From contig JAGXKT010000005.1 in the NCBI GenBank assembly GCA_018335035.1, forward strand, positions 62,001 through 126,000: a stretch of DNA of 64,000 bases, read 5' to 3'. The DNA comes from Phycisphaerae bacterium (GTDB lineage: Bacteria; Planctomycetota; Phycisphaerae; SM23-33). The position numbers were made by a program, and so were the translations under genes. Numbering within the stretch: position 1 is the stretch's first letter; each line of letters begins with the position of its first letter. Positions 3,335 to 15,795 of the stretch are shown piece after piece. The notes under the pieces were generated by a model. It did no database searches and was not told the DNA's origin. It saw nothing but the letters and a program-made list of their open reading frames with translations.

Positions 3335-4345
3335 ATGGAGCACGAGGTCGTTCAGAAGCTTACGGCCCGGGCCGCGCGGCTGGGCAACACGATCGTTCTA
3401 CCGGAGGCGCACGATCCGCGCGTGCTTCGTGCGGCCGGAGAGGTCGCCCGTCGCAACTACGCTCACGTGGTGCTTCTCGGCCGACCGGACACGATCCGCG
3501 TCGCGGCCGAGCGCACCGAGGCGGACATATCGCATGCCGAGATTGTCGACCCGGACACCGACGGGGCGCGCGACGAGTACGTCCGGACACTGCAAGCGCG
3601 TCGCCGGCACAAAAACATGACGCGTGACGACGCCGACGCGCTGCTGAGCCACCCCGTCTACTATGCCGGCATGATGGTCGGCGCCGGGCGGGTCGACGGC
3701 ATGGTGGCCGGGAGCATGTCGCCCACGGCCGACACGGTGCGCAGCGCGCTGTACGGGGTGGGCACGGCCGAGGGCATCCGAACCGTCAGCGCCTGCAGCG
3801 TCATGAACACTATCGTCCACAACAGCGGTGTCGACGGTTCATTCATCTTCGCCGATACCGGTGTCGTGCCCGACCCAACCGTCGATCAACTGGCGGACAT
3901 CGCCATCGCTGCGGCGGACTCCTGCCGCGTGCTGCTGGACGTCGAACCGCTCGTAGCGATGCTGAGCTTCTCCACGAAGGGCTCTTCAAAGAGCTCCGCC
4001 GCCGGGAAGGTCATCGCCGCGACCGAGGAGGTCCGCCGGCGAGGCGCGAACCTACTGGTGGACGGAGAGCTGCAACTTGACGCAGCCGTGGTCGCAGATG
4101 TCGCGCGCCGTAAGGCGCCGGACTCGCCCGTCGCCGGACGGGCCAACACGCTGGTGTTTCCGGACCTGGCCTGCGGGAACATCGGCTACAAGCTCATCGA
4201 ACGAATGGGCATGGCGACGGCGCTGGGCCCGCTGCTGATGGGATTGGCGCGACCGGTCAACGACCTGTCGCGCGGCTGCAGCGCGGAGGACATCGTTCTG
4301 ATCGCGGCAATTACCGCCGTCCAGGCCGGCGCCCTTACGCCGTGA
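3335..4345 (+). CDS. pta: Phosphate acetyltransferase
   Basis: 336 aa, the size of the short single-domain Pta. The enzyme interconverts acetyl-CoA plus phosphate with acetyl phosphate plus CoA. Family motifs are visible: [13 protein letters not shown] at the N terminus, [11 protein letters not shown]-like substrate loop ([11 protein letters not shown]), DGELQLDAA, and [17 protein letters not shown] near the C terminus. The ATG at 3335 has AAAGG eight bases upstream and begins exactly where the family begins; the longer ORF start is rejected. No ackA lies beside it. Its stop overlaps the convergent STAS gene by 11 bp. A phosphate butyryltransferase is less likely given the motif set. Confidence 0.92.
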
Positions 4346-4688
4346 GCGCCGCGCCGGCGTCTTCGTACATCGGGAAGAGCTTGGTCAGACGCGTCGTCTC
4401 GAACAAGCGTCGGATGCTCGGTTGGGGCTTGAGCAGGCGAAGTTGCCCCTCGTGATGGCGTAGCTTGAGGTGTGCCTCGACCATGGCACCGAGTCCGGCC
4501 GAGGCGATGAAGTACATCTGCTCCAGGTCCAGCACGACGGGGTGGCATTGGGCGTCACACAAGTCACAGAGTTGCTTCCGGAGGCCCGCGGCTTCACCCA
4601 GGCCCACCGACCCGCGGACGTGTACGACTGCGGCCCGGCCGTGACGTTCGACCTCCAGCCCCAGCGATTCCTCATTGTCCGGTTTCAT
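4335..4688 (-). CDS. STAS-domain anti-sigma factor antagonist-like protein
   Basis: 117 aa from the ATG at 4688. The single domain has the STAS pattern: beta strand [10 protein letters not shown], then [23 protein letters not shown]. The usual phosphorylatable Ser of the DSSGLG loop is present as IASAGLG. Such proteins bind RsbW/SpoIIAB-type kinases and release their targets. It is the last gene of a tight group with the ATPase and STAS genes upstream (10-nt gaps). The longer ORF start is out of register with the family. Confidence 0.82.
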
Positions 4689-4698
4689 GGTCTGGCCC

Positions 4699-5160
4699 TC
4701 AGTCAGAGGCGTCCCGCGACCCGTGGCGGTCATTGACCTTGACCAAGCGAACCTGATTTCCCCCACCGAGAAACTGCACGTCGTCCATGTAGGCCCGCAT
4801 GAGCATGATGCCGCGCCCGCACGGCTTCTCAATGTTTTCGTCGGCGGTCGGATCAGGAATCCGCTTGGGATCGAATCCGCGGCCTTCGTCGATGACGGTG
4901 ACCTCAGTGCAGCGCTCGTCGACCTCGTAGCAGATGGTCACGCGCTTGTCGGGGTCCATGGCGTTTCCGTGCTTGATGGCATTATTGAGCGCTTCCTCGA
5001 CAGCAAGGCGAATCGCGAAAGAGGCCGACTCGCTGTACCCGTGCCGCGCCACCTCGTCGAGCAATGCCTGCTGCGCGCGGCGAAGATCCGTGAACTCGGA
5101 GCGTATCACCATCTTCTCTGCCAACGTAGCCCTCGTCGTGCCTGCGGGGGTCCCGCTCAC
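4699..5160 (-). CDS. RsbW-like anti-sigma regulatory factor (serine kinase, HATPase_c fold)
   Basis: 153 aa from a GTG at 5160; an ATG at 5112 (MVIRSEFTDL) is an alternative start. GHKL-ATPase motifs are complete: N-box EEALNNAIKHGN, G1 box DEGRGFDP and G2-like GRGIMLMRAYMD. No histidine-kinase dimerisation domain is present, so this is the stand-alone switch kinase type. It would phosphorylate and bind one or both flanking STAS proteins and in turn sequester a sigma factor or other target. No sigma factor gene is nearby, so the final target is unknown. Confidence 0.88.
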   Translation of the reverse strand: MSGTPAGTTRATLAEKMVIRSEFTDLRRAQQALLDEVARHGYSESASFAIRLAVEEALNNAIKHGNAMDPDKRVTICYEVDERCTEVTVIDEGRGFDPKRIPDPTADENIEKPCGRGIMLMRAYMDDVQFLGGGNQVRLVKVNDRHGSRDASD

Positions 5161-5170
5161 CCGCGCCGCC

Positions 5171-5536
5171 CTAGGTCAGCGACTCCAGCGCCTCGGAGAC
5201 GGCATCATGGATTCGGAAAACATCGTTGAGCCGCGTGATGACGAACACCTCGTAGATTTCCGGCTGAATGCTCGCCAAGCGGAGGTCTCCGTCTTTCTCG
5301 CGTACGTGCTTGTGCAGCGTAATCAACATGCCCAAGGCGCTTGAGGACATGTGCGACACGCCGCTGAAATCCAGAACCATACGCGGCCGAGAGGCCTCAT
5401 TCACAAGGGCTTCGAGCTGTCGGCCGATTTCGGAAATGCTCATCTCGTCGAGGATCTTCTCGTCAACGAAACGCACAACACTGACGCCATCCTCGACAGA
5501 CACGCTCAATCGCGGTTCTTGTTGCTGCATCGTCAT
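5171..5536 (-). CDS. STAS-domain anti-sigma factor antagonist (RsbV/SpoIIAA-like)
   Basis: 121 aa. The loop SGVSHMSSSALGMLITLHK carries the serine expected to be phosphorylated by the neighbouring RsbW-like kinase, and the fold pattern (VSVVRFVDEKILDE, MVLDFSGV) matches the family. Two ATGs, at 5536 and 5530, follow the ribosome binding site AAGGAG; both are plausible. It lies between the Hanks-type kinase gene (82-nt gap) and the RsbW-like gene (10-nt gap), which suggests one transcription unit. Confidence 0.87.
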   Translation of the reverse strand: MTMQQQEPRLSVSVEDGVSVVRFVDEKILDEMSISEIGRQLEALVNEASRPRMVLDFSGVSHMSSSALGMLITLHKHVREKDGDLRLASIQPEIYEVFVITRLNDVFRIHDAVSEALESLT

Positions 5537-5617
5537 CCGTCTCCTTGACCGGCGCCGCGGATACTGTAGCTTGCATGGTACCGGTCGGCGCCACGCGAGG
5601 CAACGGCCATTGTTCCC

Positions 5618-6850
5618 CTAACCCGCCAGCAACAACAGCAGCACCAGGTTCAACAACACGCTCGCGCCCAACCCCACCCCCAGTGCCACCAGGATGCTGC
5701 GACCGGACTGGCCGGGCTTGGCGACGGCATCGGCCCCCTCGTCGGCGGCCTCGACGGCCAAACCGTTGAGCACTGCGCTGTCGATCCGCTTGCGCGCCTG
5801 CAGCGGCGGCTCGCCCGAGCGAATCGCCTCCAGATCCAACAGCAGATCGGCCGTCGAGCCATATCGTCTGCGCCGTTCCTTGGACATCATCACTTCCACC
5901 ACTTCGCCGACGCCGGCCGAGAGTTCCGGGCGTACGTGGTCCGGCGGCACCAACGGCTCGCGCAGGTGCTTGTGCATCACGGCCACCGGCGTCGACGCCT
6001 CGAACGGCACGCGCCCGGTCACCAGGTGGTAGAGCGTCGCGCCCAGCGAGTAGATATCGGCGCGGAAGTCGATGTCCACCTCGCCTCGCACCTGCTCCGG
6101 GCTTATGTAGTAAGGCGTACCGTATGCGCGTCCGGCTTCGGCCTCGGCGGCGCGGACGTCAGCGGCAGCCCGTGCCAGCCCCATGTCCGCCAGCTTCGCC
6201 ACGCCTTCGGACGTTATCATGATATTCTTGGGTTTGACGTCGCGGTGGATCAGGCCCTGGGAATGGGCATGGTCCAACGCACGAGCGATCTGAATGACGA
6301 TGTCGAGCGCCTCGGCCTCGGAGAACACCTTGCCGCCCGCCAGCTCGTCGTGGAGCGTGTGCCCCTCGACGTACTCCATGACGAAATAGTGGTAGCCGCC
6401 GGCCTCCCCGACGTCGATCGCCTGGACGATGTTGGCATGATTCAGTTTGGCCGCCGCCCTGCCCTCGCGGTTGAACCGCTCGACGTACTCGGGGTTCTCC
6501 GACATCTTGCGGGGCAGGACCTTGATCGCCACCTCGCGATCCAAGCTCAACTGCCGCGCCTTGAACACCGTCGCCATCGCCCCGGCGCCGATCTTCTCGA
6601 GGATCTGGTAGCCGGGGATCTGCTGCGACCGCGACGCTTTGATCGTCTCCTTGAGGCGTGAGATCTGCCGCGGAGTCACCGATCCCTGCGCGACCAGCAC
6701 ATCGGCCAGCGTCCGGTTCGAGGCGTCTTCGTCGCGGCAACGCTTGGAGGCCTCTTCGACTTCTTCATGCGTCGCCAAATTGCGCTCGACGACAAGATGT
6801 CCGAGTTCCGTATCGAGCGATTCCGCCGTCTTGGCATTCTGCCCGGTCAT
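5618..6850 (-). CDS. Membrane-anchored Hanks-type serine/threonine protein kinase
   Basis: 410 aa from the ATG at 6850, which has GGGAGC upstream; the ORF start nine codons earlier lacks one. An N-terminal helical region (about residues 1-75) is followed by a kinase domain (about 80-335): glycine loop GAGAMATVF, VAIK lysine, catalytic loop HRDVKPKN and APE-like SPEQVRGE. The metal-binding DFG is DMG here. A single C-terminal membrane helix (SILVALGVGLGASVLLNLVLLLLL) ends the protein with almost nothing outside, so no extracellular sensor domain exists. It heads the partner-switching cluster and may phosphorylate its STAS proteins (inference). Confidence 0.92.
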   Translation of the reverse strand: MTGQNAKTAESLDTELGHLVVERNLATHEEVEEASKRCRDEDASNRTLADVLVAQGSVTPRQISRLKETIKASRSQQIPGYQILEKIGAGAMATVFKARQLSLDREVAIKVLPRKMSENPEYVERFNREGRAAAKLNHANIVQAIDVGEAGGYHYFVMEYVEGHTLHDELAGGKVFSEAEALDIVIQIARALDHAHSQGLIHRDVKPKNIMITSEGVAKLADMGLARAAADVRAAEAEAGRAYGTPYYISPEQVRGEVDIDFRADIYSLGATLYHLVTGRVPFEASTPVAVMHKHLREPLVPPDHVRPELSAGVGEVVEVMMSKERRRRYGSTADLLLDLEAIRSGEPPLQARKRIDSAVLNGLAVEAADEGADAVAKPGQSGRSILVALGVGLGASVLLNLVLLLLLAG

Positions 6851-6994
6851 CGCTGCTCCCGGGGAAAGACCTGGCATGCACCAGGCCGAAAGTTGTCTCG
6901 CACTCGGTAGCGCCCGGAAACCATAGTCACGTGTCCGACCGGCGTCAAGCTCTACAAGGCCCGCCCAAGCGACAGGCCGGTCCTTATGTTCATT

Positions 6995-8041
6995 CTAGGA
7001 TTCGTCTTCTGCCCAAACCATCGCGCCTGCTGCTTCATCGACCGCGGCATACATCGCGCGTGGGGCAAGCGTCTGACCACCGCGGCCGCGATTCGCCATG
7101 AAGCGTCGCACCTCCCAGCAGAGGTGACACTTGCCGGCATATTGCGCGGCGGGACGAAACCCCGCCCGTCGCGCCTCGTCGACAAGCCCCACCGGTCCTT
7201 TCCGCACCAACGTGGCGACAATCGCCCGCCGTCCGTGATCCGCGTCCAGCCGCCGCCAGATCTCGCCCGGCGTCTGGGGGCCGACCCGTCCGACGACGAT
7301 GCCCGCGCACGTGCCCGGACTGATCCGCCCTGCCGGGTCCACGTGCACGTGCCGCCCTCGCAATAGCGGCTGCCGACAGTTTTCATCGGCCAGATCAAAT
7401 ACCGACTTTGCCAGAAGATGCCGTCCCAACATGCCGGCCGCACGTCCGGTGAGCCGGTCCCGCCGCCGCTGGGCATACTCGGCGAACAGGCGCCGGCGCC
7501 GCTCGAGCGAAAGGCCCGCCGTGTCGATCCCCTCAGCAAGCCAATCCCGCCAGCGGACCTGCACGCGACCGCTGCCGAGGACCTCCTCCGCGGCGCGGAC
7601 GAGGCGCCTGACGCGCACGATGGGAACGAACTGCTGATGGTAAGGATCAGCCGAAACGCTGAGCGTCTGCATGCCGGCGACATCCAGCGCCGCCAGCCGC
7701 CGACGGATGATCGCATCGTCATCGGCCCAGAAGGCGTTGGTCTCGACCTTCTCCAGCGGGCCGAGCCCCTCAGCGTGGGCGCGGCGTGCGATCGTGATCA
7801 GAAGGTCCCAGTTGCCGAACGGCTCGCCGCCGGTCAGGTGAACCCGGCATCCGTGGGGCGAGGCGTCCACCAGGCCGCGCCAGGCGCGCAGGGCCAGATC
7901 CGCGTCGATCCAGCCGCGGCGTTCGGGACCGCAGCACAGGTAGCACGACGCGCAGCGGGCACTGCACCAGTAGCTCAGCAGGATGCCCGCCCGCGACCAG
8001 TACTTCACCGGCATCGGTTCTGTGCGATGTCGCCGGGGCAT
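6995..8041 (-). CDS. Radical SAM protein with C-terminal cysteine cluster
   Basis: 348 aa from the ATG at 8041; a second ATG at 8014 is possible. The cluster motif is CSARCASC (CX3CX2C), ligating the SAM-binding 4Fe-4S cluster, followed by LTGGEPFGNW, the GGE motif for SAM binding. Later cysteines (ENCRQP, GTCAG, KCHLCWEVRRF) resemble a SPASM/twitch-type auxiliary cluster region. The substrate is not identifiable. It is divergently transcribed from the GGCT-amidoligase-like gene across only 71 bp with back-to-back promoters, which hints at a shared pathway. Confidence 0.85.
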   Translation of the reverse strand: MPRRHRTEPMPVKYWSRAGILLSYWCSARCASCYLCCGPERRGWIDADLALRAWRGLVDASPHGCRVHLTGGEPFGNWDLLITIARRAHAEGLGPLEKVETNAFWADDDAIIRRRLAALDVAGMQTLSVSADPYHQQFVPIVRVRRLVRAAEEVLGSGRVQVRWRDWLAEGIDTAGLSLERRRRLFAEYAQRRRDRLTGRAAGMLGRHLLAKSVFDLADENCRQPLLRGRHVHVDPAGRISPGTCAGIVVGRVGPQTPGEIWRRLDADHGRRAIVATLVRKGPVGLVDEARRAGFRPAAQYAGKCHLCWEVRRFMANRGRGGQTLAPRAMYAAVDEAAGAMVWAEDES

Positions 8042-8047
8042 GACGGC

Positions 8048-8077
8048 ATTGTACCGGTTGGCCGGCACGCGGCGCAA
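8048..8077 (-). promoter_or_regulatory. Candidate promoter for the radical SAM gene
   Basis: TTGCGC, 18 nt, TACAAT on the minus strand. The inferred start falls at or next to the ATG at 8041, so the message may be nearly leaderless or may start translation at 8014. Confidence 0.4.
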
Positions 8078-8112: not shown

Positions 8113-10059
8113 ATGGGCAAGTCCGAGCAGGGCAAACCGTTCTATCTGTTCGTTTACGGCACGCTGATGCGGCCGGAGGTGTTTCGCGCCGTGCTGGGGC
8201 GATGGCTGGTGCGTTACGCCCAGCAGGCCGACGGCCGCGAGACGTTTCACGCGCGGCCGGGCGTGCTCGACGGGTACAAGAAGGTCAGCCCGGACCGCAC
8301 CTACCAGTACGCCGTCGAAGATCCCCACGGGCGCATCCGCGGATACGTCGTCGGGCCGTTGCCATCTGAGCTGATGTCCGCTCTGCGAGAATACGAAGGC
8401 AAGAACTACTCCAAGCGGACGCTGAAGGTTCAAACGCAGGACGGGCCCGTGCGAGCCGTGGCGTTCGTCGCCAATCGCAAGCAACTCGAGCACGCCTTCG
8501 GGCACGCTTTCCGCGACCCGCTCAAACAGGAAATTCTCCTGGACGACAAGATCGAGCGGGCCCTGATCGAGACCGAGCGCGAGCACCTGCACACGACCGA
8601 GGCCCTCGCGCGCCGGGCGGTCGGCGAGCTGCACGGCCCGACCATTCGCGACCTCGTCCGGCGGCACTTCGAGGCCGGCGGCATCAGCGACTACGCCATC
8701 CGCCACGCCCTGAAGGACGCGCCGCTGCGCGACTTCGCACACTTGGTCGACGATCCGGAGGCGGCCGCCTTGGCGCCGAACTACCTGACGCTCGTGGTCC
8801 GCCAGGTGATCTTCAACCAAATCGAGGAGGCCATCCACCGCGACTTCCGCTACGAGTTGGACCGCATGGGCCCCAGCAGCCACTATTACGACCGTGCGAT
8901 CAGCTCGCTGGCGGCATTGCGGATTCTCAACGCCAACAACGCGCTGCTCGAATTGCTGATGGGCGACTGTCTGACGGAACTGGACTTCGCCGCGGACCAC
9001 CTGGTGGACTACGTCCGCTGGGCGATCGTTGCAGCCGATTCGCTCTACGAGCCGCATCAGGTCTCAAGCGAGCTGAATTTCATCCGAAGCCACATGGGAA
9101 CGGGTTACATCTCACTCGGGGCCGAGTTGGAGTTCTCGAACATCGGACACGACGTGATCCGCGACCCGTCCGGTCATGACCGTCGCGACAGCCGCTACGA
9201 CGGGTTTCTGTACTTCCGAGACTTCGCGCTGGACGCGTTGACCTGGAAGCTCGGCGGACACATCGACGACCACCACCGCAAGACGTCCGAGGGCCCGCGA
9301 CGGGGCTTTTTCGAAATCGCGCCGGGAAATCTCTCGCTCAAGGAGAATATCTCCAAGCCGTTGACCGACGACGCCTGGACGCTGAACCAGCTGATCCATG
9401 AGGGGCGGCAGTTCTACGCGGGCATCGCGCCGCACAGCGTGCATCTGTCGCTTCAGCTTCGCCGCCAGCACAAGCCCGACCGCAATCGTATCCTCCCAAT
9501 GGCGGTGATGAAGTGCCTGTTCGCCATCGGCGGCGATCCGCAACGTGACGATGACGGGTACGTTCGCATCCGCCGCCTGACGAGCGACGAGATTATCTCG
9601 CGCGACGGCGCACCGCGTATGCTGCTCAGCGAGATCTCCGTTCGCCACAGTCGCGGCGGCGCCGAGGATCATCCGAGCATCCGTACGCCCGATTCCGGCG
9701 GGCGTTACGTCCAGCAGTTCCGTTTTCTCCGCCTTTCGCCGACACTGAACTACGAGCCGATCATCCTGGCGCTCAAAGGCATTCAGGTCCGCCTGCGGCC
9801 GGGGACATTCCTGACCGGCTCCCAGGCCGAAACCAGCGATCGCCACCGCCGCGCCTTCGAGGCGCTGGTCGAATGGGGCCGACAGCCCACCGCCTTGAGC
9901 GAGAAGGACATGACGACCTTTCTCGACGCGGTCAGCGAGGGACTACATGCGGAAAAACGCGGAAAAGCCGCTCACAGCGGGGCCTATATCGCCTGGGCCG
10001 TCAGCCAGCTCCGCGCCATGTGCCGCCGCTTCAACGAGCAGGTCACGCATCGACCGTGA
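8113..10059 (+). CDS. Fusion of gamma-glutamylcyclotransferase-like (AIG2/GGCT) domain with an amidoligase-like domain
   Basis: 648 aa from the ATG at 8113. Residues about 7-125 show the GGCT/AIG2 fold: FVYGTLMRPEVF near the start, DGYKKV, and LREYEG carrying the usual acidic residue. A helical middle follows (about 130-310). The C-terminal part contains LGAELEFSN (near 335), GFFEIAPGNLSLKENIS (near 397) and HSVHLSLQL (near 442). These resemble metal-binding strands of glutamate-cysteine-ligase-like COOH-NH2 ligases, but this is pattern recognition only. Amidoligases linked to GGCT domains are known from comparative genomics and are thought to make and break gamma-glutamyl-type amides. No transport signals are present; the protein should be cytosolic. 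Confidence 0.65.
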   Translation: MGKSEQGKPFYLFVYGTLMRPEVFRAVLGRWLVRYAQQADGRETFHARPGVLDGYKKVSPDRTYQYAVEDPHGRIRGYVVGPLPSELMSALREYEGKNYSKRTLKVQTQDGPVRAVAFVANRKQLEHAFGHAFRDPLKQEILLDDKIERALIETEREHLHTTEALARRAVGELHGPTIRDLVRRHFEAGGISDYAIRHALKDAPLRDFAHLVDDPEAAALAPNYLTLVVRQVIFNQIEEAIHRDFRYELDRMGPSSHYYDRAISSLAALRILNANNALLELLMGDCLTELDFAADHLVDYVRWAIVAADSLYEPHQVSSELNFIRSHMGTGYISLGAELEFSNIGHDVIRDPSGHDRRDSRYDGFLYFRDFALDALTWKLGGHIDDHHRKTSEGPRRGFFEIAPGNLSLKENISKPLTDDAWTLNQLIHEGRQFYAGIAPHSVHLSLQLRRQHKPDRNRILPMAVMKCLFAIGGDPQRDDDGYVRIRRLTSDEIISRDGAPRMLLSEISVRHSRGGAEDHPSIRTPDSGGRYVQQFRFLRLSPTLNYEPIILALKGIQVRLRPGTFLTGSQAETSDRHRRAFEALVEWGRQPTALSEKDMTTFLDAVSEGLHAEKRGKAAHSGAYIAWAVSQLRAMCRRFNEQVTHRP

Positions 10060-10062
10060 GCG

Positions 10063-11661
10063 TCACGACGCGTCGCCGGCGGGGGTACCCGTGGCGCTGT
10101 CGCGCCCTTCCGCTTCGCCGGCGCCGGTCTCGCCATCGCCCTCGATCGCTTCGCCCGGTCGCTTTCCGGTCAACACGTACCGTGCGAACGCGGCCAGCAT
10201 GTCGTCCTCGGCGTCTGCGAGCTTGGCGGCCTGTTGACGTGCAGCGAACGTCTGGCCCAGGCATTGGTGCAGGTAGGCGCTGAGAAACACGAAGCTCCGG
10301 TCGGCGCGTGTCGCAACGCCTTCGTCGGTCCGCTCGTCCAACGCGACGAGGCGCTGTTGCAGCACGTCGATCTGCTTTCCCATCATCCGCGCCACGTCCA
10401 TGCGCGTCTCCATCAGGGGCGGATACAACTCCATCGCCTCCCGCAGCAATATGGCGGCGGTCAGCGGCTCACCGGCGGCCAGCATCGCCAACGTCCGCCC
10501 CACCCGCGGCAACGGGCTGGCCGGGCGTATCAGCAGCGCCGCCTGGGAGCTCTCGTCGGCCCGGTAGAACTCGCCGCGCTGCAACCGCCGCTGGGCCTCG
10601 GCCATCCGCGCGTTATACGCTGAGTCGCGGCGACCGGCCAAGCTGCGCACCATGACGCTCTGCGCGTCGATTTCCACGATCGGCTGCATCGGACGGGTCG
10701 CCTCGTCCGCTTCGTCAGCCGCGGCATCATCCGTCGGCTCCGACTCGGTGTCGGTCTCGACAAACGACTGCATGCGCCGTTCGCCGCGCAGCTCCTGCTG
10801 GCGCAGCAGCATGTCCAGATACACGTCCTGGTTGGGCGCCACGTCGCCGGTGCGCGCCGCCTGCTCGCTCGGCGGGACCTGCCCATCCTCGGTCGCCTCC
10901 GGCGCACGGAACTCAGGAGGCATCTCGCGCCCGGTCGCGCGCGACTCAACCGTGCCGTCCAGGCGCGCCTCGATTCTTTCCTCGCGCCGCGGCTCGGCCG
11001 TCAGAGGCGTCTGCGAGGGGCCGACCGCTTCAGACTCCGCGTCCAAGCGCCGTTCACGTCCGGCCAGAATCTCGCCAAGCCCCGTACCGGTCAGCCCGCC
11101 GCCGTCCGGCAGCCCGCCGGCCGTATACGAGCCGCCTAGGCGGACGCCCTCGCGCCGCGCGCCGCGGGCCATGAGTGCCTCGTAGTCTCTCGTCGCCTCG
11201 GCAAAGATGCGTTCGGCGAGCCCGTCGCCGTCGCCCGATCTCGTTCGCCATTGTGATCCCAGCCCCGTTCCGCCGCTGCGCAGCTCGAACGTCGTCTGAG
11301 CCGGGTCGAAATACGGCGCCGTTCTGTGCGTCGCGCCGCCGAGGACGCTCTCGATGCCCACCGACTGACGACGGAATCCGCTGAGCGTCGTCGACGGAAG
11401 GGTCAGGCGCAGCTCGTTGGCCGCCTGGTAACCCGCGTCCCCGCGGAATCGGCCCAGCCCCGTGACCTGCCCGGTAACGTAAAGCTGGCTGTCGACGCCA
11501 AAGTCACCCGTGCGACTGACGTTCCGCCGCCCGCCGCCGACCAGCGGGTTAGCGTCCAGCGCCCGTCCGTAGTTGATGCGCCCCACCTGTCCACGGGCCG
11601 TGGCGACGGCGACCAGCACCAGCCCAGCCGTCATGAGTATCCTGAGGGTGTTACGGTTCAT
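10063..11661 (-). CDS. Exported TPR-like protein of unknown function
   Basis: 532 aa from the ATG at 11661, which starts a clean signal peptide (MNRNTLRILMTAGLVLVAVATARGQ); an ATG ten codons earlier is the alternative. The N-terminal half is low-complexity and Gly/Arg/Glu-rich. The C-terminal part (from about residue 340) has helical repeats with TPR-like spacing, including RLQRGEFYRADESSQAALLIRP and LREAMELYPPL. The last 30 residues are acidic and disordered. No enzymatic motif is seen. It is convergent with the GGCT fusion gene (3-nt gap) and divergent from glgP. Confidence 0.75.
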   Translation of the reverse strand: MNRNTLRILMTAGLVLVAVATARGQVGRINYGRALDANPLVGGGRRNVSRTGDFGVDSQLYVTGQVTGLGRFRGDAGYQAANELRLTLPSTTLSGFRRQSVGIESVLGGATHRTAPYFDPAQTTFELRSGGTGLGSQWRTRSGDGDGLAERIFAEATRDYEALMARGARREGVRLGGSYTAGGLPDGGGLTGTGLGEILAGRERRLDAESEAVGPSQTPLTAEPRREERIEARLDGTVESRATGREMPPEFRAPEATEDGQVPPSEQAARTGDVAPNQDVYLDMLLRQQELRGERRMQSFVETDTESEPTDDAAADEADEATRPMQPIVEIDAQSVMVRSLAGRRDSAYNARMAEAQRRLQRGEFYRADESSQAALLIRPASPLPRVGRTLAMLAAGEPLTAAILLREAMELYPPLMETRMDVARMMGKQIDVLQQRLVALDERTDEGVATRADRSFVFLSAYLHQCLGQTFAARQQAAKLADAEDDMLAAFARYVLTGKRPGEAIEGDGETGAGEAEGRDSATGTPAGDAS

Positions 11662-11797
11662 GGTCTCTAGCACCTTGCCTGTCTGTTTCATCGACACATC
11701 CGACCGCTTGCCTGTGTAATTGTAGGGCGCCGGCAGCCGCCAGACGAGGCCAACCCGCCGGGCTGACGGACAAATGGCGTAATCTTGCGGACACGCT

Positions 11798-11826
11798 TTG
11801 CCGATACGTGCTACGGATGCTACGAT
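11798..11826 (+). promoter_or_regulatory. Candidate promoter for alpha-glucan phosphorylase
   Basis: TTGCCG, 17 nt, TACGAT; the ATG follows about 70 nt after the inferred start point. Confidence 0.4.
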
Positions 11827-11904
11827 GATCTCGTTGCGGCCCGCCCGGCTGCGCTCGGGCGCGCCGGTGAGCCGTCGACCGCCCAGTGCCCCCACGGATT
11901 GCTC

Positions 11905-14481
11905 ATGCGACCGCTACGAACCTTTACAATCGAACCGTCGCTCCCGCCGCAACTCCAGCCGCTGCTGGAGATCGCCTACAACCTCTGGTGGTGCTGGCAT
12001 GGCGACGCGCTGGAGCTGTTTCGACGGCTCGATCCGGACACGTGGGAGGCCTGCCAGCACAACTGCGTGGACCTGCTCGGGCGCGTCAGCCAGCAGCGTT
12101 TGGAAGAGATGGCCGGCGACGAGGGCTTCCTCGCGCACGTGCAGCGCATTCACCAGGCGCTGCGCGAGTACATGAACAAGCCGGGCTGGTGGACGCGCAC
12201 CTACGGCCAGGAGGAGGAGCGCGGGACGGTCCGCGTTGCCTACTTCTGTGCCGAATACGGCATCAACGAGTGCATGCCGATCTACTCCGGCGGGCTGGGC
12301 GTGCTCGCCGGTGATCATCTCAAAAGTTCCTCCGAGTTGGACCTGCCGCTGGTCGGCGTGGGACTTCTATATCAGCTCGGCTACTTCCACCAGCGGCTCA
12401 ACGCCGACGGGTGGCAACTCGAGCTGTTCCCGCGAAACGACTTTCCCAACATGCCCGTGGCGCTGGTCCGCAACGGCGAAGGCGAGCCGATCACCGTGCA
12501 CGTCGAGATGCCCAACCGCACGACGCACGCGCAGGTCTGGCGGGTCCGGGTCGGACGCGTCCCGCTGTATCTTCTTGACACCAACGTACCCGAGAATTCG
12601 CCCGAGGACCGCCACATCACCGCCCAGCTCTACGGCGGCGACCAGGAAATGCGGATCCGCCAGGAGATCGTCCTCGGCATCGGCGGCGTCCGTATGCTTC
12701 GCGCCATCGACTGCCACCCGCAGGCCTTCCACATGAACGAAGGTCATTCCGCCTTTCTCGCCCTCGAACGGGCGCGGATGCTCATGGCCGAGAAAGGCAT
12801 CAGCTTCGCCGAGGCGATCGAGCCGGTCGTCGCCTCGAACGTGTTCACCACGCACACGCCCGTCCCGGCCGGCAACGACGCCTTCGAGTCCTGGCTGATC
12901 GACAAATACTTCGCCAACTACTGGGAGCAGCTCGGGCTCGATCGCGAGCAGTTCCTCCGGCTCGGTCGCCAGGAGCCCGATAACCAGGACGAGCCAATGA
13001 ACCTCACCGTCCTGGCCATGCGGATGAGCACCTTCCGAAACGGCGTCAGCAAGCTGCACGGACAGGTCAGCCGCAAGCTCTGGGCGGGCGTCTGGCCGAA
13101 TATCCCCGCCGACGAGGTGCCCATCACGCACATCACCAACGGCGCCCACACGCCGAGTTGGATCAGTCACGACATGGCCGAGCTGTATGACCGCTACCTC
13201 GGGCCGGGTTGGCACGAGAAGCCGGCCGACATGAGCGTCTGGCAGGCCGTCGAGCACATCCCGGATACCGAATTGTGGCGTACGCACGCGCGCCGCCGCG
13301 AGCGGCTCGTGGCCTTTGCCCGCCGCCACGGGCACAAGCAACTCACCAAACGCGGCGCGAGTTCGTCGGAGCTTGCCGCGGCCGAGGAAATCCTCGATCC
13401 CGAGGCGCTGACCATCGGCTTCGCACGGCGCTTCGCGACGTACAAGCGGGCGAACCTCATTCTCCAGGACATCGACCGCCTCGCGGCGCTGCTGAACAAT
13501 CCCGACGCGCGGGTGCAGATCATCTTCGCCGGAAAGGCCCACCCGCGCGACAACCCGGGCAAGGACCTCATCCGCCAGATCGTCCACTTCGCGCGCCAGG
13601 AGCCGTTCCGCCGCTCGCTGGTGTTCCTCGAAGACTACGACATGAACATCGCCCGCTACCTCGTCCAGGGCGTGGACGTGTGGCTCAACACGCCGCTGCG
13701 CCCCATGGAGGCCTCGGGCACCAGCGGCATGAAGGTCGCCGCGAACGGCGGGCTGAACGTCTCCATCCTCGACGGCTGGTGGAACGAGGGCTATGACAGC
13801 GGCGTGGGATGGGCCATCGGCGCCGGCGAGAGCTACGACGACCTCGAATACCAGAATACCGTCGAATCCCAGGCGCTCTACAACCTGCTGGAAAAGGAAG
13901 TGGTCCCCCTGTTCTACGACCGCGGACCGGATAACCTGCCCCGCGCGTGGATCGCCAAGATGAAGGCGGCCATGTCGCGCCTGGCGCCGGTGTTCAACAC
14001 CAACCGCATGGTCCGCCAGTACGCCGAGCAGTTCTATCGCCCGGCCGCTCGCCGCTGGGAGGAGCTGACGACCGACGACCTGACGCGCACGCGACAGCTC
14101 AGCGCCTGGAAGGCCAAACTCCACGAGCAGTTCGCCAGCGTCCGCATCGAAAGCGTCCAGGACGACCTGGACGGCAACGGGACACCCGCCCAGGTCGGCG
14201 AGGACGCCCGTGTCGAGGCCGTCGTCAACCTCGGCGGGCTCAGCGCCGACGACGTCTCCGTGGAGCTCTACTACGGCCCGCTGGACGAGTCCGGGCAGCT
14301 CGCCGGCGGCGAGGCCCTTCCGATGGAGAAGGTCGACACCGACGCGAGCGACGGGCAGGCCCGCTACGCCGCGGCCATGCCCTGCCGACGCAGCGGACAG
14401 AGCGGCTACACCGTCCGCGTCCTGCCCCGGAACGACCTGCTGGCCAACCCGCGCGACCTCGGCCTCATCCGCTGGGCGTGA
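11905..14481 (+). CDS. glgP: Alpha-glucan phosphorylase (GT35)
   Basis: 858 aa. It starts with the DUF3417-type N-terminal domain of the bacterial/archaeal alpha-glucan phosphorylase subfamily (LEIAYNLWWCWHGDALELF), followed by AYFCAEYGINECMPIYSGGLGVLAGDHLK. The PLP-binding lysine lies in EASGTSGMKVAANGGLN, and FTTHTPVPAGND and RRFATYKRANL are further family motifs. The enzyme releases glucose-1-phosphate from glycogen or maltodextrins in the cytosol; galU in this window could consume that product. The ATG at 11905 begins the conserved RTFTIEPSLPP segment; the ORF start 40 codons earlier reads through the promoter region. Confidence 0.95.
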   Translation: MRPLRTFTIEPSLPPQLQPLLEIAYNLWWCWHGDALELFRRLDPDTWEACQHNCVDLLGRVSQQRLEEMAGDEGFLAHVQRIHQALREYMNKPGWWTRTYGQEEERGTVRVAYFCAEYGINECMPIYSGGLGVLAGDHLKSSSELDLPLVGVGLLYQLGYFHQRLNADGWQLELFPRNDFPNMPVALVRNGEGEPITVHVEMPNRTTHAQVWRVRVGRVPLYLLDTNVPENSPEDRHITAQLYGGDQEMRIRQEIVLGIGGVRMLRAIDCHPQAFHMNEGHSAFLALERARMLMAEKGISFAEAIEPVVASNVFTTHTPVPAGNDAFESWLIDKYFANYWEQLGLDREQFLRLGRQEPDNQDEPMNLTVLAMRMSTFRNGVSKLHGQVSRKLWAGVWPNIPADEVPITHITNGAHTPSWISHDMAELYDRYLGPGWHEKPADMSVWQAVEHIPDTELWRTHARRRERLVAFARRHGHKQLTKRGASSSELAAAEEILDPEALTIGFARRFATYKRANLILQDIDRLAALLNNPDARVQIIFAGKAHPRDNPGKDLIRQIVHFARQEPFRRSLVFLEDYDMNIARYLVQGVDVWLNTPLRPMEASGTSGMKVAANGGLNVSILDGWWNEGYDSGVGWAIGAGESYDDLEYQNTVESQALYNLLEKEVVPLFYDRGPDNLPRAWIAKMKAAMSRLAPVFNTNRMVRQYAEQFYRPAARRWEELTTDDLTRTRQLSAWKAKLHEQFASVRIESVQDDLDGNGTPAQVGEDARVEAVVNLGGLSADDVSVELYYGPLDESGQLAGGEALPMEKVDTDASDGQARYAAAMPCRRSGQSGYTVRVLPRNDLLANPRDLGLIRWA

Positions 14482-14529
14482 CGCGGCATCTCACCACAGC
14501 GCACACGAAGAACACCGAGACCGTAGGGC

Positions 14530-14702
14530 CGGGTGCCGTGGTTTGCGAAGCAACCACGTCGTCGCCGACGCGCTACGAGAAGCCGGGTGCCGTGGTTTGC
14601 GAAGCAACCACGTCGTCGCCCGAAACCCGGCCCCAAGCCCAGCCGGGTGCCGTGGTTTGCGAAGCAACCACGTCGTCGCCCGAAACCCGGCCCCAAGCCC
14701 AG
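14530..14702. repeat. Tandem hairpin repeat, three copies
   Basis: The block GTGGTTTGCGAAGCAACCAC occurs three times inside a 36-nt unit. The last two copies belong to an exact 60-bp tandem duplication (14583-14642 and 14643-14702). Each block folds into an eight-pair stem with one bulged T and a GAA loop. The array lies 48 bp after glgP. Function unknown. Confidence 0.85.
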
Positions 14703-14870
14703 CCATTGCAATGACCGGGAACATACCACCTCGCTGTGTTGCCAGAGGGACCCTCCGCGGGGAGAAGCCCTCTGGCAACACCTTACGGGCTTGGCGTGGT
14801 GGGTAGTCCGCCGCGCCGCGAATCCCGGCCGGTTGATCCGACTGGGGAGCCCCGAGCCCCAACGGCGCGC

Positions 14871-14971: not shown

Positions 14972-15418
14972 TCAGGACTTGACCTCGATCCGACGGCTCT
15001 TGGCCTGCTCGGTCTTGGGCAGTTTGACCGTCAGCACGCCGTCGCGATAGGTCGCCTCGGTCTTACCCGCATCGACGGGCGCGGGCAGCTCGACGTCGCG
15101 GCGGAAGCTGCCGTACGTCCGCTCGACGTGGCAGTAGGACGCGTCCTTGTGCTCGTTGGACTGCTTCTTCTCGCCGCTGATCGTCAGCACGTTGCCCTGC
15201 ACCGCGATGTCGATGTCGTCGCGGGTCATCCCGGGCAACTCGGCGTGAAGGACGACCTCGTTTTCGTTGTCGGCCACGTCCAGCGCCGGCCACCACAGCC
15301 CGCGGCGTGCGGCGCCGAGCGGCCAATCCTCGAAGAACCGCCCGAACAAGTCGTTGACCTCGTCCTGGAGCCGGCCCAGCGGCGCCGAGCGATCGCCTCT
15401 ACGTCGTACGATTGCCAT
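14972..15418 (-). CDS. Small heat shock protein, Hsp20/alpha-crystallin family
   Basis: 148 aa. The alpha-crystallin domain (about residues 42-140) contains DVADNENEVVLHAELPGMTRDDIDI and GVLTVKLPK, ending with the IxV-type C-terminal tail (RRIEVKS). It would be an ATP-independent holdase forming oligomers. AGGAGGTGG directly upstream of the ATG is one of the strongest ribosome binding sites in the window, and a terminator hairpin follows the gene. No CIRCE-type inverted repeat is seen upstream. Confidence 0.95.
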   Translation of the reverse strand: MAIVRRRGDRSAPLGRLQDEVNDLFGRFFEDWPLGAARRGLWWPALDVADNENEVVLHAELPGMTRDDIDIAVQGNVLTISGEKKQSNEHKDASYCHVERTYGSFRRDVELPAPVDAGKTEATYRDGVLTVKLPKTEQAKSRRIEVKS

Positions 15419-15653: not shown

Positions 15654-15795
15654 GCCGGAAAAATAGGGGAAAAATAGGGACAGTCACCGTTTTGGGAGAG
15701 GTTCTTCCGCCGCTTGAGGCATACGCAACCCAAAACGGTGACTGTCCCTATTTTTCTAAACGGTGACTGTCCCTATTTTTCTCTATTTTTCCGGC
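15654..15795. mobile_element. MITE-like inverted-repeat element, copy 1
   Basis: Outer 13-bp perfect inverted repeats (GCCGGAAAAATAG / CTATTTTTCCGGC) enclose 27-bp inner inverted repeats with the core GGGACAGTCACC. The right inner end is present twice (15729-15755 and 15758-15780). No transposase is encoded. The right end abuts TATACT (15797-15802), a possible -10 box for the next gene. Confidence 0.7.

Follow-up and report, generated by a model that had tools for sequence, protein, structure and literature searches.

A single-chain fusion of a GGCT-type cyclotransferase domain with a predicted glutamine synthetase/PafA-like ligase domain in Planctomycetota

We analysed a 64,000-nucleotide stretch of a Planctomycetota genome (hereafter the window), in which a single uninterrupted open reading frame on the forward strand encodes a protein of 648 amino acids (P0001), running in one frame from an ATG at position 8113 to a stop codon ending at 10059 and aligning over its full length with its relatives. 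A second in-frame ATG lies upstream at 8077 and would lengthen the protein by 12 residues. Since the alignment of most relatives starts only at about residue 7, and since the open reading frame of a radical SAM protein on the opposite strand (6995-8077) begins at 8077, the ATG at 8113 is the likelier start. The chain was divided into a GGCT/GGACT (AIG2-like) domain at residues 12-124 (8146-8484), an all-helical middle region at residues 136-311 (8518-9045) and a predicted ligase-like domain at residues 312-648 (9046-10056). The original prediction had described this gene as a single-chain fusion of two domains, and one 648-residue frame carrying a significant GGCT domain bears that architecture out. 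A sequencing or frame artefact was ruled out because many other genomes, both in the order and in the class, carry the fusion, and no internal stops were reported in it.

The N-terminal domain can be assigned to the GGCT/GGACT group at the family level, as had been proposed for it at the outset. In a Pfam search the fusion protein matched PF06094 over residues 12-124 with 44.4 bits (E 3e-11), above the curated cut-off of 22.8, and the same profile matched all 28 of the relatives aligned first at E <= 1 (best 1.9e-16). The YGTL sequence at residues 15-18 (8155-8166) corresponds to the YGSL motif that has been described for GGCT-fold enzymes, which also have a catalytic glutamate in common (PMC7022552). 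In mouse GGACT the motif reads YGTL (Tyr7, Gly8, Thr9 and Leu10), and Glu82 lies in the catalytic site (PMC2954230). Across our alignment of 52 sequences the YG pair was invariant and followed by T or S in every member, with L in the fourth position in 49 sequences and F in three. The glutamate of the YEG sequence at residues 94-96 (8392-8400) was likewise invariant (52/52), and from its position in the Pfam match we take Glu95 as the equivalent of the catalytic glutamate of GGCT enzymes, that is, as the candidate general acid/base. A Foldseek search with the full-chain model returned Arabidopsis AIG2-like proteins, ChaC2 and human GGCT and GGACT among its best matches, the GGACT, GGCT and ChaC structures at probability 1.00. 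The likeness to the GGACT/AIG2-like cyclotransferases (human GGACT, GGCT and ChaC) therefore comprises a match to the greater part of the profile, the YG[ST]L motif, the invariant candidate glutamate and the best structural matches. The members of this family that we compared are stand-alone or short proteins, whereas here the domain forms the N-terminal part of a much longer chain.

For the remainder of the protein we relied on structure prediction. AlphaFold gave a pLDDT of 87.3 and a pTM of 0.81 for the full chain (alignment of 28 sequences), and 84.7 and 0.87 for residues 312-648 alone (alignment of 42 sequences). The middle region, which is all-helical in the predicted secondary structure, matched no Pfam family by itself in the 28 relatives searched, and it is conserved about as much as the other regions of the fusion (52 sequences). 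When residues 312-648 were compared with the PDB using Foldseek, PafA (4bjr) came first, with E 4.9e-5 and a probability of 1.00, and glutamine synthetases together with another PafA entry took the places below it. PafA and glutamine synthetase entries made up all of the eleven best matches, and the next match was unrelated, with a probability of 0.10. The full-chain search also returned PafA (1.00), glutamine synthetase (0.89), Dop (0.85), GshF (0.72) and GmaS (0.41), while a library of viral structures gave weak matches only (best probabilities 0.63, 0.41 and 0.44, the last an annotated phage amidoligase). PafA, Dop and glutamine synthetase belong to one superfamily of carboxylate-amine ligases, and in glutamine synthetase and PafA ATP first phosphorylates the gamma-glutamyl group, which is afterwards attacked by the amine (PMC7947786). 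The superposition with PafA was loose, with a TM score of 0.45 of the query and an rmsd of 9.3 over 386 columns, so the likeness is to be read as a statement about the fold superfamily and not about the family. The model thus supports the C-terminal domain as a divergent relative of the glutamine synthetase/PafA superfamily at the fold level, with no family assigned. The original prediction had named a fold comparison as the way to challenge its amidoligase-like reading of this half, and the predicted fold proved to be related to the glutamine synthetase-like ligases. The ligase part of that reading is supported to this extent, but the nearest solved fold is PafA and not a glutamate-cysteine ligase.

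Sequence comparisons of the C-terminal half, including the profile search suggested earlier, gave no significant link to GCS2 or Amidoligase_2. Apart from weak scattered matches, confined to one to a few of the 28 relatives, the C-terminal half of the query and of these relatives had no family match in Pfam, NCBIfam, PHROGs or PADLOC. Matches to aromatic amino acid hydroxylase profiles (Biopterin_H, Trp_5_monoox and Phe4hydrox_tetr) occurred in a single member each and were rejected as chance. Searches of PDB sequences with the single protein and with profiles matched no ligase, and Amidoligase_2 (PF12224) had no Pfam match in the 28 members at E <= 1. Using hhalign with ligase-family profiles built in this analysis, the local P values for the C-terminal alignment were 0.027 for glutamine synthetase, 0.032 for Amidoligase_2, 0.19 for Pup ligase and 0.28 for GCS2, as compared with 0.15-0.77 for eight unrelated control clusters. 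No ligase family was significant; the two lowest values did belong to ligases, over short stretches in which the motif sets were not paired. A search with COOH-NH2_lig (PF14395) gave no match to the domain and none to any control either. Within the fusion's own genome the Pup ligase (PF03136) and GCS2 (PF04107) profiles had no match, and the single match to glutamine synthetase (PF00120) was a separate gene on contig C32. PafA is the closest solved fold of the domain, yet it differs from PafA and Dop (Pup ligase and depupylase) in having no PF03136 match and a loose superposition, and in residing in a genome that has no Pup ligase match. With glutamine synthetase and GCS2 it shares the fold superfamily; it differs from both in the missing profile match, and GCS2 is absent from its genome. 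By eye it resembles Amidoligase_2 in the order of its motifs (GxExE, E..SP, HxH, ...R, as read in the L086 sequence), but has no Pfam or significant hhalign link to that family. Since no sequence profile ties the domain to GCS2 or Amidoligase_2, we treat it as a divergent relative at the superfamily level.

Three motifs of the C-terminal domain, GxExE (336-340), GF[FL]ExAxG (398-405) and HSxHxSxQ (441-448), rank with the best-conserved positions of the family, and they correspond to the motifs picked out by eye in the original prediction (ELEF, FFEIAPG and SVHLSLQ). In the window protein they read GAELEF at residues 336-341 (9118-9135), with the candidate metal ligands E338 and E340, RGFFEIAPG at residues 397-405 (9301-9327), with the candidate metal or substrate residue E401, and PHSVHLSLQ at residues 440-448 (9430-9456), with H441 and H444. 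A further segment, QQFRFLRL at residues 534-541 (9712-9735), contains R540. Among the 52 sequences E338 and E340 are each kept as glutamate in 51, E401 and H444 in 50, and H441 and R540 in all. In the model the ExE, E, HxxH and R candidate residues are placed on successive core strands: E338 and E340 on strand 334-341, E401 on 399-402, H441 and H444 on 440-449, R511 on 506-512 and R540 on 531-540, the last of the core strands.

The two sequences in which E401 is altered come from the two genomes available for one family, f109 (G435, locus L079, and G442, locus L182). In each of them one of E338 and E340 is replaced by D, and the two also carry D385 changed to E or R, H387 to M or R, E401 to R or V, and H444 to R or A; D385, H387, E401 and H444 are all kept in the remaining 50 sequences. 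The L182 sequence is additionally altered at G336, S446, Q448, Q535, N546 and E548. Both retain H441, R488, E493, R511 and R540, and their GGCT motifs are intact; the L079 gene lies at 8134-10074 of that locus. If the candidate ligase residues form one active site, then they should be lost together, and their joint alteration beside intact GGCT motifs is suggestive of such a shared site, with the qualification that these are two sequences from one family. The lineage offers a natural control, since its departures affect the ligase residues and spare the GGCT motifs.

The fusion is widespread within one class of Planctomycetota and widely kept there. A protein search gave matches in 26 of the 38 genomes of the order and in 7 of 392 genomes sampled across the phylum, and a profile search matched 103 of 397 genomes of the class, about a quarter. 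Four of these 103 matches (G418, G496, G564 and G584) are limited to the GGCT region or to a short piece at one end, and some more are broken off where a contig ends; the remainder reach into the fused part, with no internal stops reported. A search with the C-terminal profile in 294 genomes of the phylum recovered known fusions only and no unfused C-terminal domain, and the phage, plasmid and viral-contig collections yielded no relatives. Our scan of other phyla consisted of a close-relative search of the genome collection, which returned three Planctomycetota loci, and the fusion may occur more widely. No paper describing a GGCT-ligase fusion was found in the literature searched.

What the fusion joins in one chain is often encoded by phages as two separate, nearby genes. 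A GGACT gene lay near an Amidoligase_2 gene in six of eight sampled phage regions (L113, L114, L115, L117, L119 and L120), and none was seen among the neighbours scanned in the other two (L116 and L118). Amidoligase_2 is thus a recurrent partner of GGACT, but as a separate gene in the phages sampled. In Arthrobacter phage Salgado (L117) the GGACT gene precedes the amidoligase gene, the same order as in the fusion, and the same two functions are listed for Arthrobacter phages as genes 97 and 98 (PMC5513430). The two genes are about 2 kb apart in Bacillus phages, and both functions are found in the published annotations of a Pseudomonas fluorescens phage (PMC3890496) and of a phage infecting a cultured planctomycete (PMC10945688). 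No experiment identifying the substrate of such a pair was found in the literature searched. In L113 the Amidoligase_2 protein (4335-5888 of that region) carries an additional N-terminal stretch of about 220 residues that has no Pfam match.

Taking the fusion and its conservation together with the GGCT family match, the predicted ligase-like fold and the conserved motif set, we consider it somewhat more probable than its negation that a divergent glutamine synthetase/PafA-type ligase and a GGCT cyclotransferase are united in this chain as a bifunctional gamma-glutamyl enzyme. In such an enzyme the C-terminal domain would bind metal ions through E338/E340, E401 and H444 and use them with ATP to activate a carboxylate, the likeliest being the gamma-carboxylate of a glutamate that is free or stands at the end of a peptide, and the ligase domain would then join it to an amine. 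The GGCT domain would break gamma-glutamyl amides with Glu95 as the acid/base, releasing the amine and 5-oxoproline, and the middle helical region may dock the two domains or bind the acceptor. We infer that both sites are active and that the ligase product is a gamma-glutamyl bond. The substrates of the two domains might be identical or linked, with one domain making what the other removes or with the pair editing chain length; action on the same bond is plausible, and the recurrent phage gene pair helps this view. Some considerations count against the bifunctional reading. To make and remove one bond constitutively with a single chain would be wasteful, unless the activity were regulated or the substrates differed, and the C-terminal domain has neither a significant sequence or profile link to a ligase nor a close fit to the PafA fold. 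On our best reading, the novelty lies in the fusion architecture and in the divergent ligase family, the chemistry itself being known.

The gene neighbourhood bears on whether the two domains act in succession. In ten loci of the order (the window, L080, L161-L166, L168 and L174) the radical SAM gene and the fusion form a head-to-head pair, the aligned starts being about 24-490 bases apart (36 in the window; in L162 the match starts inside the protein). In L084 the radical SAM gene lies 2 kb away, and the flanking sequence retrieved for the other order loci did not show it. The window protein has a CxxxCxxC motif, but its Radical_SAM Pfam match is weak and below the cut-off, and its match to a YydG peptide epimerase-like NCBIfam model scores 43 bits where the cut-off is 300. 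Genes for an aminotransferase, a large membrane protein and a family 2 glycosyltransferase (GT2), sometimes also an alanine racemase gene, usually precede the fusion on the same strand in families f7 and f115. We did not adopt this string as a functional operon, as its genes look mixed and it may reflect plain synteny. Neither arrangement is common to all lineages, and no gene neighbour in the loci scanned points to a substrate. Genes for a STAS-domain protein and for a Ser/Thr protein kinase also lie near the fusion (5171-6877, reverse strand), and relatives of both occur close to it elsewhere in the order, at some of the loci.

Gamma-glutamyl groups serve as carriers in the catabolism of polyamines and alkylamines. 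By analogy, the ligase could load an amine with gamma-glutamate, which would protect or carry it, a second enzyme could alter the amine, and the GGCT domain could then remove the added group as 5-oxoproline, so that the two domains would meet different intermediates and no cycle on one bond would arise. The presence of GmaS, a gamma-glutamylmethylamide synthetase, among the full-chain fold matches is consistent with this scheme, and either the radical SAM protein, frequent in the fusion's own order, or the aminotransferase of the string that the fusion closes in two families could supply the middle step. The neighbours vary by lineage, however, and therefore provide no single conserved middle enzyme; we judge the sequential scheme unlikely. 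A stronger form of the bifunctional reading appears to us improbable: in it a new PafA/glutamine synthetase-like branch would write gamma-glutamyl amide bonds, possibly isopeptide bonds, on peptides or proteins, the eraser of these bonds would be fused to it in a single chain, and the pair would have been retained across a class of Planctomycetota.

Modification of proteins could take another form, in which the PafA-like ligase places glutamate or a short gamma-glutamyl peptide on protein lysines, leaving the GGCT domain to remove the gamma-glutamyl-lysine remnants. This proposal draws on the fact that the closest solved fold is that of PafA with Pup, and on the gamma-glutamylamines that are substrates of GGACT-type enzymes (PMC7022552). 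Against it stand the looseness of that fold match, the lack of a Pup ligase profile match in the fusion's genome, and the failure to identify a Pup-like partner. To our knowledge, moreover, GGCT enzymes generally act on small molecules and not on intact proteins, and we regard protein tagging as very unlikely.

The distribution of GCS2 raised the further possibility that the fusion stands in for glutamate-cysteine ligase where GCS2 is missing, its ligase domain supplying gamma-glutamylcysteine or a comparable thiol precursor and its GGCT domain recycling this product. All 30 fusion-bearing genomes tested (the fusion's own and 29 others) had no GCS2 match, as compared with GCS2 in 24 of 59 genomes of a phylum sample, and only three (G396, G397 and G498) of the 56 GCS2-positive genomes in a class sample of 327 were also on the fusion list. 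The GCS2 pattern follows lineages, however, so that shared ancestry alone may explain it; most genomes of the class have neither gene, GCS2 was the sole type of glutamate-cysteine ligase searched, and f109 retains the protein despite its altered ligase residues. The stand-in role is accordingly more doubtful still. Least probable of all is that GGCT is the sole enzyme, regulated by a non-catalytic glutamine synthetase-like sensor of nucleotide or glutamate: f109 indicates that the protein can be retained with an altered ligase site, but the conservation of D385, H387, E401 and H444 in all the other sequences would be unusual for a mere binding domain.

If, as the bifunctional reading holds, both domains are active, then opposing gamma-glutamyl chemistries are united in one polypeptide, and the fusion would provide a handle on the role of the recurrent amidoligase and cyclotransferase pair of phages. 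The ligase-like family is absent from all libraries searched, and it is carried by about a quarter of the class genomes sampled.

Further downstream in the window, positions 11785-14481 encode a carbohydrate phosphorylase with an N-terminal DUF3417 domain. Between the end of this frame at 14481 and a reverse-strand frame at 14972-15418 lie three tandem units of about 60 bases (14527-14704) containing the palindrome GTGGTTTGCGAAGCAACCAC, which occurs nowhere else in the window. A 25-base unit, AAACGGTGACTGTCCCTATTTTTCT, is present in two exact copies at 15733-15782.
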